From an uncultured Sphingomonas sp. (GTDB taxonomy: Bacteria; Pseudomonadota; Alphaproteobacteria; Sphingomonadales; Sphingomonadaceae): a stretch of 64,000 nt of DNA. Below are positions 18,950 to 28,134 of this stretch, piece by piece. Location of the stretch: NCBI GenBank assembly GCA_913776045.1, contig CAJYOI010000016.1, forward strand, positions 1 to 64,000, given 5' to 3'. The position numbers and the translations under genes were made by a program. The first letter of the stretch is position 1, and each line of letters starts with the position of its first letter. The notes beneath the pieces were generated by a model. It did no database searches. It saw only the letters and a list, made by a program, of their open reading frames with translations, and had not been told where the DNA came from.

Positions 18950-18974
18950 GGAACCGCCCCGCCCCCGCCTTGTT
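18950..18974 (+). promoter_or_regulatory. Candidate extracytoplasmic sigma (EcfG-type) promoter
   Basis: GGAACC (18950-18955) is followed by TGTT at 18971-18974, with 16 bases between GGAAC and TGTT. This is close to the alphaproteobacterial general-stress promoter GGAAC-N16/17-CGTT, with one mismatch in the -10 part. It lies 32 bases before the first gene of a run of small membrane or stress-type proteins, where such a promoter would make sense. One mismatch in a short motif makes it uncertain. Confidence 0.4.
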
Positions 18975-19005
18975 GTGGAGGCGAACCGAAGGAAGGCGTC
19001 AGATC

Positions 19006-19503
19006 ATGGCCAAAGATACGGAAACCGCCGGCAACTTGGACGTGGAATTCACGCCCGAACCCGGCCTGGAAGATCGCTTCAACAACCGCGATGCGGAGAA
19101 CGGCACCGCAACGTCGGAAAAATTGCGCGGCGCCAAGCAGTTGGTGAAGGACGAGGCAGGCAAACTGACCGGCCAAGCGGGAGAGAAGCTGCGCGCCTTG
19201 GCCGACGACGGCAAGGCCCGCGCGACCGGTGCGCTCGACGAGCTTGCCAAGACCATTGAGGATACGGCAGCGACGATCGACGAGAAGGTCGGCCCGCAGT
19301 TCGGCGGCTATGCCCGCTCGGCATCGGGCGCGGTGACCAGCTTCGCCGACACTCTGCGGGACAAGGAGATCGACGATCTGCTCGACGACGCACGCGATTT
19401 TGTCCGGAAGTCGCCGGGTGTCGCGATCGGCGCGGCGGCGGCGGTAGGCTTCGTGCTCGCCCGCCTCGTCCAGTCGGGCATCGACGCGAACCGCGACGCC
19501 TGA
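19006..19503 (+). CDS. DUF883/YqjD-like membrane-anchored protein
   Basis: This 165-residue protein is acidic and helical. Residues 40-130 form amphipathic helices of the KDEAGKLTGQAGEKLRALADDGKA type, followed by a C-terminal single membrane segment (GVAIGAAAAVGFVLARLVQSG). This tail-anchored layout matches DUF883/ElaB-YqjD proteins, some of which bind ribosomes or are induced in stationary phase; whether that applies here is inference. The ATG at 19006 has GAAGGAAGG upstream. It heads four consecutive small genes of similar character. Confidence 0.72.
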   Translation: MAKDTETAGNLDVEFTPEPGLEDRFNNRDAENGTATSEKLRGAKQLVKDEAGKLTGQAGEKLRALADDGKARATGALDELAKTIEDTAATIDEKVGPQFGGYARSASGAVTSFADTLRDKEIDDLLDDARDFVRKSPGVAIGAAAAVGFVLARLVQSGIDANRDA

Positions 19504-19527
19504 CGTCTGGCCGGCAGGGGGACCGCA

Positions 19528-19878
19528 ATGACGGGATTGCCGAACGAACCTGAAGCTGGCGTGGGCGTCGGCGACGCGATCGTCCAGGTCGCCGAGGACG
19601 CCCGCGCCTATGCGATGGCGCAGGTCGACGTGGCAAAGGCGGTCGCGACGGCCCGGCTGCGCGCAGCGAAGCTGGGGTTGATCCTGGGCGTTGCCGCGAT
19701 CTTCCTCGCAGGCTCGGCTTTGACGGCCTTTCTCGTGGGCCTCATCATGGCGCTGTCGACCAGGACCGGGCCGCTTCTCGCGACGGCGATCGTCGTAGTG
19801 GCCGTTCTGGCGATCACCGGGCTGCTCGGCAAGCTGGCGGCGTCGCGGCTGTCGCGCGCGTTCGGAGGTGACACATGA
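19528..19878 (+). CDS. Phage-holin-family (DUF1469/Holin_X-like) membrane protein
   Basis: This 116-residue protein has an N-terminal helix (VAEDARAYAMAQVDVAKAVATARLRAAKLG) followed by two hydrophobic segments of about 20 residues each and a short basic C-terminus. This is the layout of the Holin_X/DUF1469 family, which despite its name is usually a chromosomal envelope protein. GGCAGGGGGACCGCA lies before ATG 19528. It overlaps the next gene by ATGA, so translation is coupled. Nothing phage-like surrounds it. Confidence 0.75.
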   Translation: MTGLPNEPEAGVGVGDAIVQVAEDARAYAMAQVDVAKAVATARLRAAKLGLILGVAAIFLAGSALTAFLVGLIMALSTRTGPLLATAIVVVAVLAITGLLGKLAASRLSRAFGGDT

Positions 19879-20195
19879 CTGATGATCCCACGGTCGTTGC
19901 CGCCCGTGCCCGCGCGTCGGCTGCTCGCGCCCGGCTGGACGCCTCGCTTTCTGTGGCGAAGCAGCGGCTCAATCCGAAGTCGATCGCCGCAGACGCCGTC
20001 GGCACCGCGGCCGACAAGGCGAGCCTAGCGGCTCAGACCGGCATCCAGGTCGTTCGTGAACGCCCGGCGATCGCCGCAGCCGTCGCGGGTGCCGTGGGCC
20101 TCGCCCTTGCGCACAAGCCGTTGCTGGGCTGGGCTACCGCATTGATCGGGCGCGACGACGCAACCGCCGCGTCCGACACGAGTTCAGAAAACTAA
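19875..20195 (+). CDS. Small Ala-rich protein, possibly DUF3618-like
   Basis: This 106-residue protein has an Arg/Ala-rich coiled N-terminus (VAARARASAARARLDASLSVAKQRLNP) and one moderately hydrophobic segment near 70-95 (AIAAAVAGAVGLALAHKPLLGW). It resembles the small DUF3618 or phasin-like membrane-associated proteins found next to holin-family and DUF883 genes. Its ATG overlaps the previous stop by 4 bases. The identity is weak, but the coupling shows it is expressed with the holin-family gene. Confidence 0.55.
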   Translation: MTDDPTVVAARARASAARARLDASLSVAKQRLNPKSIAADAVGTAADKASLAAQTGIQVVRERPAIAAAVAGAVGLALAHKPLLGWATALIGRDDATAASDTSSEN

Positions 20196-20215
20196 ATATC
20201 TGTAAGGACATCATC

Positions 20216-20629
20216 ATGGCCGAAACATCCAAGTCCGCCAAGAACAAGCCGGCCAACCGCGACAAGCTGGCCGACGCCCGCGAAGCGGCGTTCGACCGTG
20301 CCAAGTCGGCGGTAAAGGGCCTCGAATCCAACCCCGTCGGCGTGCTCGTCGGCGGCCTGACGGTCGGCCTGATCGCCGGCGCGCTGATCCCGCGCAGCAA
20401 GCAGGAAAAGAAGTTGCTTGGCACCGTCGGCAAGCGATTGGCCGAAGGCGCGACGGCGGCGGTCATCGCGGCGCGCGAAACCGGGAAGGAACAGCTAAGC
20501 GGTGCCGTGCTCGGCCGTGATGCCGCACGCGAAAGCGCTCGCAAGGTCTTCGACAGCGCGCTGACCGCGGCACGCAAGGGCAAGAAGAAGGCCGAAGACA
20601 CCGTCGAGCGCGCCGCAGACCCGGCCTGA
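20216..20629 (+). CDS. Basic small protein with short hydrophobic core
   Basis: This 137-residue protein is rich in Lys, Arg and Ala, with a short hydrophobic stretch (PVGVLVGGLTVGLIAGALIP, about 41-60) flanked by charged regions and a C-terminal helix of the ARKVFDSALTAARKGKKKAED type. It resembles no enzyme family. TAAGGAC lies seven bases before ATG. It is the fourth member of the 19.0-20.6 kb cluster, all of which look like envelope-associated stress proteins. Membrane insertion is plausible but not certain. Confidence 0.55.
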   Translation: MAETSKSAKNKPANRDKLADAREAAFDRAKSAVKGLESNPVGVLVGGLTVGLIAGALIPRSKQEKKLLGTVGKRLAEGATAAVIAARETGKEQLSGAVLGRDAARESARKVFDSALTAARKGKKKAEDTVERAADPA

Positions 20630-20687: not shown

Positions 20688-20909
20688 ATGAGCAAGATGC
20701 ATCTGGTGTTCGGCGGCCGCGTGACCGATCCGCGCACGCTCGATTTCGCCGATCTGTCGCAGATCGACATCGTCGGTATCTTCCCCGATTACGCCAGCGC
20801 TGAAAAGGCATGGCGCGAGGCGGCGCAGAAGACCGTCGACGACGCCGAAATGAAGTATGTGCTGGTGCACCTGCACCGACTGCTCGAACCCGACATGCCC
20901 GGCGCATAA
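20688..20909 (+). CDS. DUF4170 protein
   Basis: This 73-residue protein starts MSKMHLVFGGRVTDPRTLDFADLS and contains the DIVGIFPDYASAEKAWREAAQKTVDDAEMKYVLVHLHRLLEP block that defines the DUF4170 family, found in alphaproteobacteria. No function is known to me. GGGAG sits six bases before ATG. An inverted CCCGGG pair brackets the region just upstream (20641 and 20675), and it is followed by a hairpin shared with the converging hflX end. Confidence 0.85.
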   Translation: MSKMHLVFGGRVTDPRTLDFADLSQIDIVGIFPDYASAEKAWREAAQKTVDDAEMKYVLVHLHRLLEPDMPGA

Positions 20910-20921
20910 ACACATGTCGAC

Positions 20922-20944
20922 GGGCGGCGGGTTACGCGCCGCCC
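20922..20944. terminator. Hairpin between DUF4170 gene and hflX end
   Basis: GGGCGGCG pairs with CGCCGCCC around a seven-base loop containing TTAC. The stem overlaps the last codons of hflX on the minus strand and follows the DUF4170 gene on the plus strand. There is no clear T-run on either side, so it may act as a bidirectional weak terminator or only protect 3' ends. Confidence 0.35.
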
Positions 20945-22236
20945 CAGTCTTCCCGGGCCATGAAGCGGTCATGGTCCTCGGGAGAGAGGCGGACGTCGTA
21001 GATCGCCCGGTCACCATCGATCGCCTGCCCCAGCACTTCGCCATGCTGATGCAGCCACGCTGCGCCCGCCCCATCGCCGGCGTCCAGCGTGATTGTGTAC
21101 CGACGATGCCCTGCGGTCAGCAGCGCCGATATCGTCGCCAGCAGCGACTCCACGCCTTCCCCGGTCAGCGCCGAAATCGGCACCACGTCATCCCGCCGTG
21201 ACGCCTCGACGATCAGGTCCTCACGCGCGTCGCCCACCAACAGGTCGAGCTTGTTCCACGCCTCGATCCGCGGCGTCGCTTCCTCGACGCCGATATCCGC
21301 CAGCACGCCTTCGACGTCAGCCTTTTGCGCCGCACTGTCAGGATGCGCCACGTCGCGGACGTGGACGAGCAAATCGGCCGATACGACCTCCTCCAACGTC
21401 GCCTTGAACGCAGCAACCAGCTGCGTCGGCAGTTCGGAGACGAACCCCACGGTGTCCGACAGGATCGCCTTATCGATGCCGGGCAGCGATATCTGCCGCA
21501 GCGTCGGATCGAGCGTCGCGAACAACAGGTTCTCCGCCATGACGTCGCTGCCGCTCAGTCGATTGAACAGCGTCGACTTGCCCGCGTTGGTGTAGCCGAC
21601 CAGGGCGATGACCGGCCACGGCGCGCGCTGGCGCCGTTCCCGATGAAGCCCACGCGTACGGCTAACCTGGTCGAGCTCGCGCCGCAGCCGCGCCATCCGG
21701 TCGCGGATCAGGCGACGGTCGGCCTCGATCTGGGTTTCGCCCGGGCCGCCGAGGAAGCCGAAACCGCCGCGCTGACGTTCGAGATGGGTCCAACTGCGTA
21801 CCAGGCGACCGGCCTGATAGTCGAGGTGGGCCAATTCGACCTGCAACCGCCCTTCCGCCGTCCGCGCGCGCTCGCCGAAAATCTCGAGGATCAGGCCCGT
21901 GCGGTCGATGACCTTGCACCCCAGCGCGGTTTCCAGATTGCGCTGCTGCACCGGCGTCAGACTGGCGTCGAACACCGCCAGCGTCATGTCGTCGGTCTTC
22001 ACGACATCCGCCAGTTGCTCGACCTGACCGCTGCCGATCAGTGTCGCAGGCTTCGGCGCGCGGACACGGAACGCGATCTTGTGCGCGACCTCGACGCCGA
22101 TCGCCAGCGCCAGCCCAGCTGTTTCCTCAAGCCGCGCATCGGCATCTCGCGGCGAGCCGCCCTGATCGGGCAGAACGACCACGGCCCGCGCGCCGCGCGC
22201 GAAGTCCTCCTGGTCGCGATCGAATCCGGTCGACAT
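20932..22236 (-). CDS. hflX: GTPase HflX
   Basis: HflX is a ribosome-associated GTPase that splits stalled or hibernating 70S ribosomes. The 434-residue protein has the N-terminal HflX domain (TLIGSGQVEQLADVV) and the linker with GGFGFLGGPGETQIEADRRLIRDR. Its G domain shows G1 GYTNAGKSTLFN, G3 DTVGFV and G4 NKLD. Its ATG overlaps the hfq stop by one base (TGATG), so hfq and hflX are translationally coupled, as in many proteobacteria. The end shares the hairpin at 20922-20944. Confidence 0.96.
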   Translation of the reverse strand: MSTGFDRDQEDFARGARAVVVLPDQGGSPRDADARLEETAGLALAIGVEVAHKIAFRVRAPKPATLIGSGQVEQLADVVKTDDMTLAVFDASLTPVQQRNLETALGCKVIDRTGLILEIFGERARTAEGRLQVELAHLDYQAGRLVRSWTHLERQRGGFGFLGGPGETQIEADRRLIRDRMARLRRELDQVSRTRGLHRERRQRAPWPVIALVGYTNAGKSTLFNRLSGSDVMAENLLFATLDPTLRQISLPGIDKAILSDTVGFVSELPTQLVAAFKATLEEVVSADLLVHVRDVAHPDSAAQKADVEGVLADIGVEEATPRIEAWNKLDLLVGDAREDLIVEASRRDDVVPISALTGEGVESLLATISALLTAGHRRYTITLDAGDGAGAAWLHQHGEVLGQAIDGDRAIYDVRLSPEDHDRFMAREDWGGA

Positions 22237-22724
22237 CAGACCCCTTCGGACGCCTGCTCGTCGGCCAGGTTCAGCGGGTTGGCGGGCTGGATCGTCGACA
22301 CCGCATGCTTGTAGACCAGCTGCGCCATGCCTTCGCGATGCAGCAGCATGCAGAACAGGTCGAAGGCCGCGATACCGCCCTGCAGCATCACGCCGTTGAC
22401 CAGGAACATGGTGACGCTTTCTTCCTGCTTGCGCACGGCGTTCAGGAAGATTTCCTGCAAGCCTGGGTTTCTCGACGACGACTCACCGATCGTCTCGACG
22501 ATGCCGGCGACATCCAGCGGACCCGACGGCATGATCGTCGAAATGGCGTGCTTGTAGATCAGTTGCGATTGGCCATCACGGCGCAGCAGGACGGAGAAAT
22601 TATCGAACCAGGTCACGATTCCCTGCAGCTTCACACCCTTGACGAGGAACATCGTCACCGGGGTCTTCGATTTGCGCAGCGCGTTGAGGAAAAGGTCCTG
22701 GAGCGATGTCTGCTTTTCGGCCAT
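22236..22724 (-). CDS. hfq: RNA chaperone Hfq with two tandem Sm domains
   Basis: The 162-residue protein contains two complete Hfq repeats. Domain 1 (1-73) has [23 protein letters not shown] and YKHA. Domain 2 (about 88-150) has [23 protein letters not shown] and YKHA. Ordinary Hfq has one such domain of about 70 residues. Proximal-face residues Gln and Tyr-Lys-His are kept in both. The distal-face Lys of KLQG becomes Met-113 in domain 2, the position of E. coli Gln-41 becomes Leu-123, and the third basic rim residue becomes Glu-101. The ring is probably three copies rather than six. Hfq pairs small RNAs with mRNAs. It is coupled to hflX. Confidence 0.95.
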
Positions 22725-23008: not shown

Positions 23009-24382
23009 TCAATCCTCGCGCGTTTCAGTGATGCCCAGCAGCTTGAGCTTCCGGTGCAACGCCGATCGCTCCATTCCGATAAAGCTCGCGGTGCGGCTGA
23101 TGTTGCCGGAAAAGCGTCGGATCTGGACGCGCAGATATTCGCGCTCGAAGCTCTCGCGCGCCTCCCGCAGCGGTGCACCCATTATCGCCGCCGAACCGCC
23201 GCCTTCCCCGTCTCCGCGGCCGAGCACTTCGGGGGGGAGCAGGTCCAGGTCGATGCGACCGATGCGGTTGCCCGGCGCCAGGATGATCGTCCGTTCGACG
23301 ACGTTACGCAGCTGGCGGACGTTGCCCGGCCATTCGTAGCTCTGCAGCGCGACCATCGCATCGGGCGCGACCTCGGGTGTCGGGACGCGGCGCTCCGCGG
23401 CGTAATGCGCCACGAAATGCTCGACCAGCGCCGGGATGTCCTCGCGGCGTTCGGCAAGCGGCGGGATAACGACCGGAACCACGTTCAGGCGGTAATAGAG
23501 GTCTTCGCGGAAGCGCCCTTCCGCGATCTCGTCCTGCAGGTCGCGCGCGGTGGCGGAGACGACGCGGACGTCGACCTTGACCACACGGGTGCCGCCGACG
23601 CGGGTGAAGCTCTGGTCGGTCAGCACGCGCAAGATGCGGGCCTGCGTCGCGACCGGCATGTCGGCGATCTCGTCTAGGAACAACGTGCCGCCATGCGCCT
23701 GTTCGAGCAGACCCGGCCGAACTAGGTCGCCCCCCTCCTCCACGCCGAACAGTTCCTCCTCGACGCGCTCGGGCGTCATGCGTGCCGCACTGACGATAAC
23801 GAATGGCGCGTTGGCGCGGCCGGACCAGCCGTGCAGCAGGCGGGCCGCGACTTCCTTGCCGACGCCCGCGCTGCCCGAAATCAGCACGCGGCTGCCGGTC
23901 GAGGCGACGCGCTTGAGGGTCGCGCGCACCGCGTTGATCGCGGTCGAACTGCCCGTCAGGTCGTCCTCGCGCCCCGCCGAGGCGCGCAGTGACGCGATCT
24001 CGCGCCGCAACCGCTCGGTTTCGGTCGCGCGCTCGACGAGCAACAAGAGCCGTTCGGCCTCGAAGGGCTTTTCGATGAAGTCCGACGCGCCCCGCCGGAT
24101 TGCGGCGACCGCAGTGTCGATGTTGCCATGACCGGAGATGACCAGCACCGGAATCGACGGATCGCGCCGCTTGATCTCGTCGAGCAGGTCAAGCCCGTCG
24201 AGCCGCGATCCCTGAAGCCAGACATCGAGCAGCACCAAGCTCGGCCGCCTGGTCGCGATCGCCTCCAGCGCAGCATCGCTATCGGCGGCGAGGCGCGTGT
24301 CGTAGCCTTCGTCCTCCAGCACGCCGGCGACCAGTTCGCGGATGTCGTATTCGTCGTCGACAACGAGGATGTCGATACTCAT
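23009..24382 (-). CDS. ntrX: Response regulator NtrX
   Basis: The 457-residue regulator starts MSIDILVVDDEYDIREL with a receiver domain (phosphoacceptor in LVLLDVWLQG). An AAA+ domain with Walker A GSAGVGKEVAAR and Walker B GGTLFLDEIADM follows, with a C-terminal Fis-type helix-turn-helix (SRTASFIGMERSALHRKLKLLGI). The GAFTGA loop that contacts sigma-54 is absent: the equivalent stretch reads ELFGVEEGGDLVRPGLLEQA. It is therefore unlikely to open sigma-54 promoters. Its start overlaps the ntrY stop (TGATG), making it the partner of NtrY. In alphaproteobacteria NtrYX responds to nitrogen and redox conditions. Confidence 0.93.
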   Translation of the reverse strand: MSIDILVVDDEYDIRELVAGVLEDEGYDTRLAADSDAALEAIATRRPSLVLLDVWLQGSRLDGLDLLDEIKRRDPSIPVLVISGHGNIDTAVAAIRRGASDFIEKPFEAERLLLLVERATETERLRREIASLRASAGREDDLTGSSTAINAVRATLKRVASTGSRVLISGSAGVGKEVAARLLHGWSGRANAPFVIVSAARMTPERVEEELFGVEEGGDLVRPGLLEQAHGGTLFLDEIADMPVATQARILRVLTDQSFTRVGGTRVVKVDVRVVSATARDLQDEIAEGRFREDLYYRLNVVPVVIPPLAERREDIPALVEHFVAHYAAERRVPTPEVAPDAMVALQSYEWPGNVRQLRNVVERTIILAPGNRIGRIDLDLLPPEVLGRGDGEGGGSAAIMGAPLREARESFEREYLRVQIRRFSGNISRTASFIGMERSALHRKLKLLGITETRED

Positions 24383-26622
24383 CAGGAATTCCGATTTCGA
24401 GTCAGCATGGCAGGACTGGGGTCGGATGCGTCGTCGGGCGCATTCGGATCGGCGAGGCCAGCAAGCGTACCGGCGTCGAACGCCAGCGTCACGACAGTGC
24501 CGCCGCCGGGGCGGTCGGTGAAGTGCATCGTGCCGAAATGCTCTTCCACGATCTTCTTGACGATGGCGAGGCCGAGGCCGGTGCCCCGCGCCCGTGTCGT
24601 CATATAGGGCTCGACGATCCGGTCGCGCTCGACCGGCAGGCCGATGCCGTTGTCGGCGATCTGTACCCCGACGCTGCGGCCACCGCTGAGCGCCAGCGTG
24701 ATCTCGCCGGTCGGCAGGTCGTCGCCGGTCCTCGCCTCGATCGCCTCGACTGCATTCTTGACCAGATTGGTCAGCGCCTGGCCGATCTGGCGGCGGTCGC
24801 ACACCAGGCTCGGCGACGGATCCTGGTAGAGCAGCGCAAAGCGGATCGCGGGGTGCGCGACCTCGTGCAAGAACACCGCCTGACGCGCGAGATCGACGAG
24901 CGATTCCTCGCGGAACACGGGCTTTGGCATCCGCGCGAAGGACGAGAATTCGTCGACCATACGCCGAAGGTCACCGACCTGACGGACGATGGTGTCGGTC
25001 AGGCGGCCGAAGGTCGTGTCGCCCTCGGGCGCCAGCTTGCCATAACGACGCTGGAGGCGCTCGGCGGCGAGCTGGATGGGGGTCAGCGGGTTCTTGATTT
25101 CATGCGCGATGCGCCGCGCGACGTCGGACCAGGCGGCCCGGCGCTGGTCGATCAGCTGCTGGGTGATGTCGTCAAAGGTCAGGACGTTGCCGTCGTCGTC
25201 GCGGGTGATCTTGACCGCCAGCGTCCGCGCCTCGCCGCTGGCATTGATCTGGACCACGCCCTCCCGCGCGCCGCTGGCGAGCAGCCCGTCGAGTTCGGGC
25301 GATACGTCGGCGAGTCGCTGGCCGACGACGTTGGCGCCGGGCGCGATGAGCGCGAGCGCCGAGCTGTTGACGAGCCGCACCGTGCGCTCGTCCCCGACCG
25401 CGACGACGCCTGCGGTGACGCCCGACATTACCGCCTCGATCAGGGCGCGGCGACTTTCGGACTCGGCATTGGCATCGACGAGAGCACTGGTCTGCGCCTG
25501 GAGCCGACCGGTCATCCGGTTGAACGCATCACCCAGCGCGCCGACTTCGTCGGACACCGAACCGACCGGCACGCGAGTCGACAGGTCGCCGCCAGCCACG
25601 CGCTCGGCAGCGTTCACCAGCTCGTCGATCGGTCGAACGAGGCGATCCGCCACGGCAAGCGCGATCCACGTCGCGAGCGCGACGATCAGCAAGGCGACGC
25701 CGAACAGGACTGCGTTGAACTGCAGTTGCAGTAGTCGGGCGCGCGACTGCAGTGCGGAATAGTCGGACAGCAGTTGCTCGGCACTGCCGCTCTGGGAGTT
25801 CAGAAAATCGACGTTCTCCGTCGTCGCTACGTAAAGAAACAGGCGTTTTGACCTGTCGATCGGCGTGACGACCCAGATGACCTTCTCATCGAAATTGATA
25901 AACGGCTTGTCATCTTGCAGCCGGTTCAGCGTCTCTCCGGAAACCCGCTTTGCAAAGGAAGACGGATCGGGATAGTCGAAACCGAATACCGCTTCGACGT
26001 CCTGCCCGTCCCTGATGCGGAACACCAGCGACTGTCGCAGATTGCGTTTGTACGTTTGATCCAGGACATAGGCCTGAAAATCAGCCGAACTGCCTGGCAC
26101 ATCCGGATACCAGCGCCTGATGTCCTTCGCCATCGACACGGCCTCGCCGGTCCACCGCTCCGCAACGACCTTCTGCCCTTCGCGCGCCAGATCCAGCGTG
26201 CTATTGAACGCCCCGACCGCACGCTCCGAACCCCAGAGCTGGACGCCCGACTGAAACATCACCGATGCGGCGACGACGGTCAGCACGATCGGGATGCTGG
26301 CCATCAGCGAGAACACCGCGACCAGCCGGACGTGCAGCCGCCCGCGGCCCGCGATCGATGCCCGGGAGGCTCGGCGGATCGCAATGCGGCGGCCGATCAG
26401 GACGATCAGAATCACTGCCGGGATCAGATTGGCGGTCAGCATCGCCGCCGCCATCGTCGGGCTGAACAGCGCCTTCGACGCGCTGGTCGCGGCGATGATC
26501 CGCCAGCTGCCGACCGCGACTGCGACCATGACCGCGATGACACCGAATTCTATCGCAGGCGTGACGGCGAAGCGCCGAAAGGGCGTTGCAGGCTCGTCTA
26601 TCGGCAATGCCGCAACAGTCAT
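24382..26622 (-). CDS. ntrY: Sensor histidine kinase NtrY
   Basis: This 746-residue membrane kinase has about four N-terminal hydrophobic segments within the first 130 residues and a large periplasmic loop, then a further membrane segment near 310. A HAMP domain follows (ADRLVRPIDELVNAAERVAGGDL), then a PAS domain, the H-box RRIAHEIKNPLTPIQLAAERLQR and HATPase motifs (LTNLVKNAVEAIEAR, DNGIGLPVE, GTGLGLAIVKKI). ATG 26622 (MTVAALPIDEP) is chosen; a GTG at 26661 in the same frame is possible and neither has a strong ribosome binding site. It forms a pair with NtrX. Confidence 0.93.
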   Translation of the reverse strand: MTVAALPIDEPATPFRRFAVTPAIEFGVIAVMVAVAVGSWRIIAATSASKALFSPTMAAAMLTANLIPAVILIVLIGRRIAIRRASRASIAGRGRLHVRLVAVFSLMASIPIVLTVVAASVMFQSGVQLWGSERAVGAFNSTLDLAREGQKVVAERWTGEAVSMAKDIRRWYPDVPGSSADFQAYVLDQTYKRNLRQSLVFRIRDGQDVEAVFGFDYPDPSSFAKRVSGETLNRLQDDKPFINFDEKVIWVVTPIDRSKRLFLYVATTENVDFLNSQSGSAEQLLSDYSALQSRARLLQLQFNAVLFGVALLIVALATWIALAVADRLVRPIDELVNAAERVAGGDLSTRVPVGSVSDEVGALGDAFNRMTGRLQAQTSALVDANAESESRRALIEAVMSGVTAGVVAVGDERTVRLVNSSALALIAPGANVVGQRLADVSPELDGLLASGAREGVVQINASGEARTLAVKITRDDDGNVLTFDDITQQLIDQRRAAWSDVARRIAHEIKNPLTPIQLAAERLQRRYGKLAPEGDTTFGRLTDTIVRQVGDLRRMVDEFSSFARMPKPVFREESLVDLARQAVFLHEVAHPAIRFALLYQDPSPSLVCDRRQIGQALTNLVKNAVEAIEARTGDDLPTGEITLALSGGRSVGVQIADNGIGLPVERDRIVEPYMTTRARGTGLGLAIVKKIVEEHFGTMHFTDRPGGGTVVTLAFDAGTLAGLADPNAPDDASDPSPAMLTRNRNS

Positions 26623-26679
26623 CGTTGCGCGCTTACACCCGGACTGTTGCCGAGAAAACACATATTTTGATAAAGCGCC

Positions 26680-28130
<1,451 letters not shown>

Positions 28131-28134
<4 letters not shown>

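Follow-up and report, generated by a model that had tools for sequence, protein, structure and literature searches.

Reciprocal divergence between the two domains of a tandem Hfq in the Sphingomonadaceae

Hfq is a ring protein that brings regulatory RNAs to their targets, with basic residues on its rim that promote annealing. Classical Hfq is made of six identical subunits, so a single site of the ring cannot be altered alone by mutation of the gene. Yang et al. (2010) described another layout, in which the Hfq of Zymomonas mobilis (ZMO0347), and likewise that of six other Sphingomonadales species, has two Sm-like domains per chain, and they posed as a testable question whether only three such chains would make a ring (PMC2877685, in the sections available). 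The two-domain layout and the idea of a three-chain ring are thus already published, which a preliminary description of the locus studied here had missed. The likeness to ZMO0347 is drawn from its published description, and the available sections of that paper hold no site-by-site comparison of the domains such as is given below. Nor did we find such a comparison of two Hfq domains elsewhere in the literature, as judged mainly by titles and abstracts and with few subscription papers.

Among solved structures, the best match to the present protein in both sequence and fold is the Hfq of Caulobacter crescentus (PDB 6gwk), which shares the RKSK stretch of the rim and the RRDG loop with the first domain described here, but is a single domain with Asn at position 28, and each of whose subunits, in the part of the report consulted, bears an acidic tail (PMC6561178). 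A more distant parallel is found in the eukaryotic Sm/LSm hetero-rings, which are built of paralogous, non-identical Sm subunits, as would be the ring proposed here; the LSm ring is described as seven separate chains (PMC2877685, available sections), whereas three fused pairs are proposed for the tandem Hfq. What looks new is a set of reciprocal differences between the two domains, a loss of rim charge confined to the second domain, and the presence of single-domain relatives within the family.

A tandem hfq gene between ntrX and hflX

The window, i.e. the whole stretch of 64,000 nucleotides that was analysed, carries an hfq gene flanked by ntrX and hflX. The features are as follows.

23009..24379, minus strand: ntrX, upstream of hfq (NF051870, 751 bits, cut-off 600)
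22236..22724, minus strand: hfq, tandem two-domain Hfq (ATG start, 162 aa plus stop)
22512..22706, minus strand: domain 1 (D1), residues 7–71, with a rim basic at five positions, distal-side K29 and K32, N42, and YKH at 57–59
22464..22511, minus strand: linker, residues 72–87, with a helix predicted by AlphaFold2 at 72–79
22272..22460, minus strand: domain 2 (D2), residues 89–151, with E101, N110, M113, L123, H129, and YKH at 138–140
22239..22271, minus strand: short acidic C-terminal tail of D2, residues 152–162
20932..22236, minus strand: hflX, immediately 3' of hfq (TIGR03156, 450.9 bits, cut-off 216.75), its ATG sharing the final base of that gene's stop codon

The preliminary description held that the whole Hfq fold occurs twice in this open reading frame, and the Pfam model PF17209 indeed matched the 162-aa protein twice along its length (full-protein score 191.7 bits, cut-off 27) and at the coordinates that had been given. 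The NCBIfam model for tandem Hfq, NF010691 (PRK14091, RNA chaperone Hfq, 176 positions), was matched over the entire length of the protein (284.5 bits, cut-off 270; residues 1–160 on model positions 16–174). By sequence, the subunits are two-domain, in contrast to the single-domain subunits of the classical hexamer. Of 65 aligned positions, 38 carry the same residue in D1 and D2. A search of the organism's own genome gave two Hfq matches (106.4 and 88.5 bits), both within this one open frame, and no further Hfq elsewhere in the assembly of 68 contigs; within that assembly the tandem gene is the sole Hfq of the cell.

AlphaFold2 predicted the single chain (mean pLDDT 89.2, pTM 0.84) as two successive units, each of one helix and five strands, with pLDDT below 50 at six residues, residues 1–4 included. 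This bears out the earlier claim that the extra length comes from a duplication and not from a disordered tail, as it is a second domain that is predicted to be folded. No tandem Hfq structure was present among 35 distinct PDB sequences (E ≤ 0.001, lengths 63–114) or among the 50 fold matches listed of 1203.

As regards the wider neighbourhood, positions 24382–28134 (minus strand), upstream of ntrX and hfq, encode an ntrC-type regulator (TIGR01818, above cut-off) and a sensor kinase that is NtrY-like judging by its position, for which no NCBIfam model scored above cut-off among the 25 matches listed of 76. On the plus strand, a DUF4170 protein (20688–20909) converges on hflX, and a series of small proteins (18970–20629) includes one that is Phage_holin_3_6-like (30 bits, cut-off 28.4), one with a weak DUF883_C match below cut-off, and two without a Pfam match. 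Rfam gave no match at gathering scores anywhere in the window.

Distribution and origin of the fusion

In a sample of 396 genomes of the order, 313 belonged to the family of the window, and 300 of these had two Hfq matches, while 13 had one. The 83 genomes of the order outside the family had one match in 76 cases, none in six and two in one case. A class search covered 385 genomes, 380 of them outside the family; 314 of these 380 had an Hfq match, two of them with two. In all three genomes outside the family with two matches, the matches sat on different contigs, and these were set aside as not shown to be tandem. The 13 single-domain family genomes span seven genera, none of which had a two-match genome in the same order table. 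Met24 occurs in 12 of the 13 single-domain family Hfqs, as in most D1 and D2, vs. Val24 in 29 of 30 order relatives.

Both domains were found in one frame at 141 loci. These come from 61 of the 300 genomes with two matches and, for the other 80 loci, from genome contigs, where they were the top 80 among 584 confirmed hits for the window protein. For the comparisons below, 114 of these loci were aligned, and the other 27, all of genus g12, were treated separately. Because 80 loci were chosen as the best matches to the window protein, the 114-locus set leans to close relatives.

The preliminary description had proposed a tree of the two domains from sphingomonads as a check. In a tree built from 268 distinct domains, all D1 sequences formed one group (support 99) and all D2 sequences another (support 93), on the basis of only 65 columns, with most inner forks unresolved; the 114 tandem loci, which are not independent, entered it as 102 different D1 and 99 different D2 sequences. 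The neighbouring gene provided a second view, since 139 of the 141 tandem loci carried 250 aa or more of HflX. In an HflX tree, a single branch, with a local support of 0, separated these 139 rows from every single-domain row. A more careful HflX tree of 53 rows (29 of the 139 tandem rows, all 12 usable single-domain family rows, and 12 from the order, after exclusion of five order rows whose branches were long or aberrant) recovered the 29 tandem rows as one group in 93% of 200 bootstrap trees, with an SH-aLRT of 41, and placed all 12 single-domain family rows outside it. Support from HflX for the tandem group is weak.

These data support a single duplication within hfq, in the lineage ancestral to the family's core, which joined two Hfq domains through a linker of ~18 residues; one fusion, unreversed in our sample, is the simplest reading. 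We also considered whether the single-domain family members had lost D2 within the tandem group, and rejected this: all 13 have Asn28 and Lys31 rather than the D1-type Lys28, and the 12 of them with an HflX of at least 250 aa fall outside the tandem group. The single-domain Hfqs of the family can serve as natural pre-fusion controls.

Divergence of D1 and D2

The 114 aligned tandem loci were compared site by site with 74 single-domain Hfqs, 13 of them from the family; 59 of the 74 were among the top 30 by score in the respective family searches, and so the 74 lean to well-conserved proteins. Positions are given in E. coli numbering. At positions 28, 31, 37, 41, 43 and 63, D1 and D2 differed and each was at least 90% uniform across the loci. 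On the distal side, position 31 was Lys in 114/114 D1 and Met in 114/114 D2 (K32 and M113 in the window, the latter a replacement already picked out in the preliminary description), and position 28, a difference that had been overlooked, was Lys in 114/114 D1 and Asn in 114/114 D2 (K29 and N110). Every one of the 74 single-domain Hfqs had Asn28 together with Lys31, and none had the D1-type Lys28. In the 27 loci of genus g12, D1 had Lys28 in 27/27 and Lys or Arg31 in 27/27, and D2 had Asn28 in 26/27 and Met31 in 19/27. The tandem Hfq of ten of these 27 genomes is strongly diverged, its linker being 11–15 residues long, and in five of the ten, D1 reads YKQ for YKH and D2 reads FKH, i.e. the proximal His has been lost from D1.

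For Pseudomonas Hfq, the consulted part of a structural study names the side chains of Tyr25, Leu26, Ile30, Leu32, Gln33, Gln52 and Thr61 in the A and R pockets, and the backbone amide of Lys31 as an RNA contact (PMC6422490). Phe25, Leu26, Val30, Leu32, Gln33, Gln52 and Thr61 were invariant in both domains of all 114 loci. Since the contact named at position 31 is made by the backbone, loss of the Lys31 side chain may be mild. In a preprint on E. coli Hfq (PMC12262471, as far as available), K31A lowered RIL-seq chimera counts almost four-fold, while earlier reports are quoted there as finding minimal regulatory effects, and on the latter ground K31M may matter little.

On the proximal face, Gln8, Tyr55, Lys56 and His57 were present in 114/114 D1 and 114/114 D2, and Phe42 in 114 D1 and 113 D2. 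We take the YKH motif, with Gln8 and Phe42, to define the proximal pocket. The statement that both domains keep the proximal-face residues therefore held for these five, but not for position 41, which we take to lie itself on the proximal face. Here Asn was replaced by Leu between the domains in 109/114 tandem loci; L123 of the window had been identified correctly, but its counterpart in D1 is Asn42 and not Gln, as had been supposed, and Asn is also the residue of 73/74 single-domain Hfqs. Overall, the YKH proximal pockets and the distal A/R pockets are kept in sequence in both domains.

The two domains also differed at the rim. Considering positions 16, 17 and 19 plus the counterparts of Caulobacter R49 and R50, all five were basic in 114/114 D1 and 73/74 single-domain Hfqs (the other had four), but in only 1/114 D2. 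The change of a basic rim residue to Glu-101 that had been pointed out in the window (E. coli R19; K20 in D1, E101 in D2) is real and is part of this general loss, and so the earlier emphasis on a diverged D2 surface is upheld by this loss together with K31M in 114/114 and N41L in 109/114 tandem loci. The lateral pocket is described, in the accessible portion of one report, as Asn13, Arg16, Arg17, Ser38 and Phe39 (PMC5379935). The combination of Asn13, Arg16, Arg or Lys17, and Phe or Tyr39 (Lys16 also allowed) was found in 114/114 D1 and 74/74 single-domain Hfqs, but in 21/114 D2, with Arg16 itself retained in 86/114 D2. The window is a milder case among the D2s, as its D2 has E101, A120 and H129 yet retains N13, R16, K17 and F39 (N95, R98, K99 and F121), with three of the five rim positions basic; for these reasons its D2 rim may still work. 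In E. coli, R16A nearly abolished RIL-seq chimeras but kept partial regulation, according to the sections seen of the same preprint (PMC12262471).

In 300 pairwise comparisons of the 25 loci closest to that of the window, median dN/dS was 0.031 for D1 and 0.115 for D2. D2 is under purifying selection and is less constrained than D1.

An alternating ring and its alternatives

We consider it probable that a tandem born of a single duplication assembles as a three-chain ring with D1 and D2 alternating, with a full rim on D1 only, a rearranged distal charge, and gating by the linker and tail. Judged from sequence, the most likely assembly would be three tandem chains that offer six U-binding pockets, a fully basic rim on each of the three D1 domains, and an alternating distal charge. 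Three chains would close into the usual six-domain ring. The complete basic rim, a charge pattern observed only in D1, would then occur at every second subunit. The charge beside the distal pockets is rearranged, with Lys28 and Lys31 on D1 and Asn28 and Met31 on D2; both features may affect RNA binding. The former D1 tail would have become the linker and would cross the rim of the neighbouring D2, relaxing selection there. A linker in that place would account for the loss of charges from the D2 rim and not from that of D1.

The linker measured 14–20 residues between profile boundaries in 114/114 tandem loci (17–19 in 112/114) and had a net charge of –2 to +2 in 112/114, while the C-terminal tail of D2 had at least three acidic residues in 113/114. 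In Caulobacter Hfq, the tip of the acidic tail rests on the positively charged rim (R18, K19 and K21), and Glu75 in the tail forms bonds with Arg49 and Ser39 of the adjacent protomer (PMC6561178, in the part consulted). By analogy, the acidic D2 tail may gate the rim of the next D1.

The faster change of D2 than of D1 also fits plain relaxation. On such an account, which we regard as unlikely though the most serious competitor, the fusion was neutral: the tandem acts like classical Hfq, three good sites per surface are enough, and D2 drifts. The higher median dN/dS of D2, the variability of its rim residues, and the fact that the 13 sampled family members manage with one domain are all as this account expects. 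However, D2 remains under purifying selection, and positions 28 and 31 (in both domains) and 63 (in D2) were constant in 114/114 loci even though each pair differs, which argues against free drift since the duplication. Moreover, at position 28 the change fell in D1, the slower domain.

A different assembly, in which six D1 form one ring, six D2 form another stacked upon it, and six chains bridge the two, appears improbable. D1 and D2 differ at positions 50, 51, 54 and 63, which are presumably near the strand interface of Hfq and could favour like-with-like assembly, and a linker of 14–20 residues would be long enough to span the rings. Nevertheless, the range of linker lengths is narrow, as expected between neighbouring subunits, and the high pTM of the one-chain model suggests a defined packing of D1 against D2. 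Finally, we give very little credence to the fusion being a mere precursor of two functional chains made by proteolysis or an internal translation start, as, despite an in-frame ATG, GTG or TTG in the linker region of 87/114 tandem loci (TTG at residue 89 in the window), no clear ribosome-binding sequence was seen by eye before that TTG, and the linker sequence is highly variable across the 114 loci, unlike a conserved cleavage site.

Returning to the alternating ring, we tentatively put forward a fuller version, in which the tandem would form a pseudo-heteromeric Sm ring of one origin, unreversed in the sampled lineage, the D1 rims being gated by the tail and active in annealing, the D2 rims masked by the linker, and the three-fold distal charge altering which mRNAs are held. 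The reciprocal differences, the rim loss confined to D2 and the single-domain relatives make the alternating ring testable. If true, it would be a clear example of how the subunits of a bacterial Sm protein specialise once fused, with single-domain Hfqs of the same family as natural controls. As three of the six sites could be changed, the number of rim, proximal and distal sites that an Hfq ring needs could then be probed as well.
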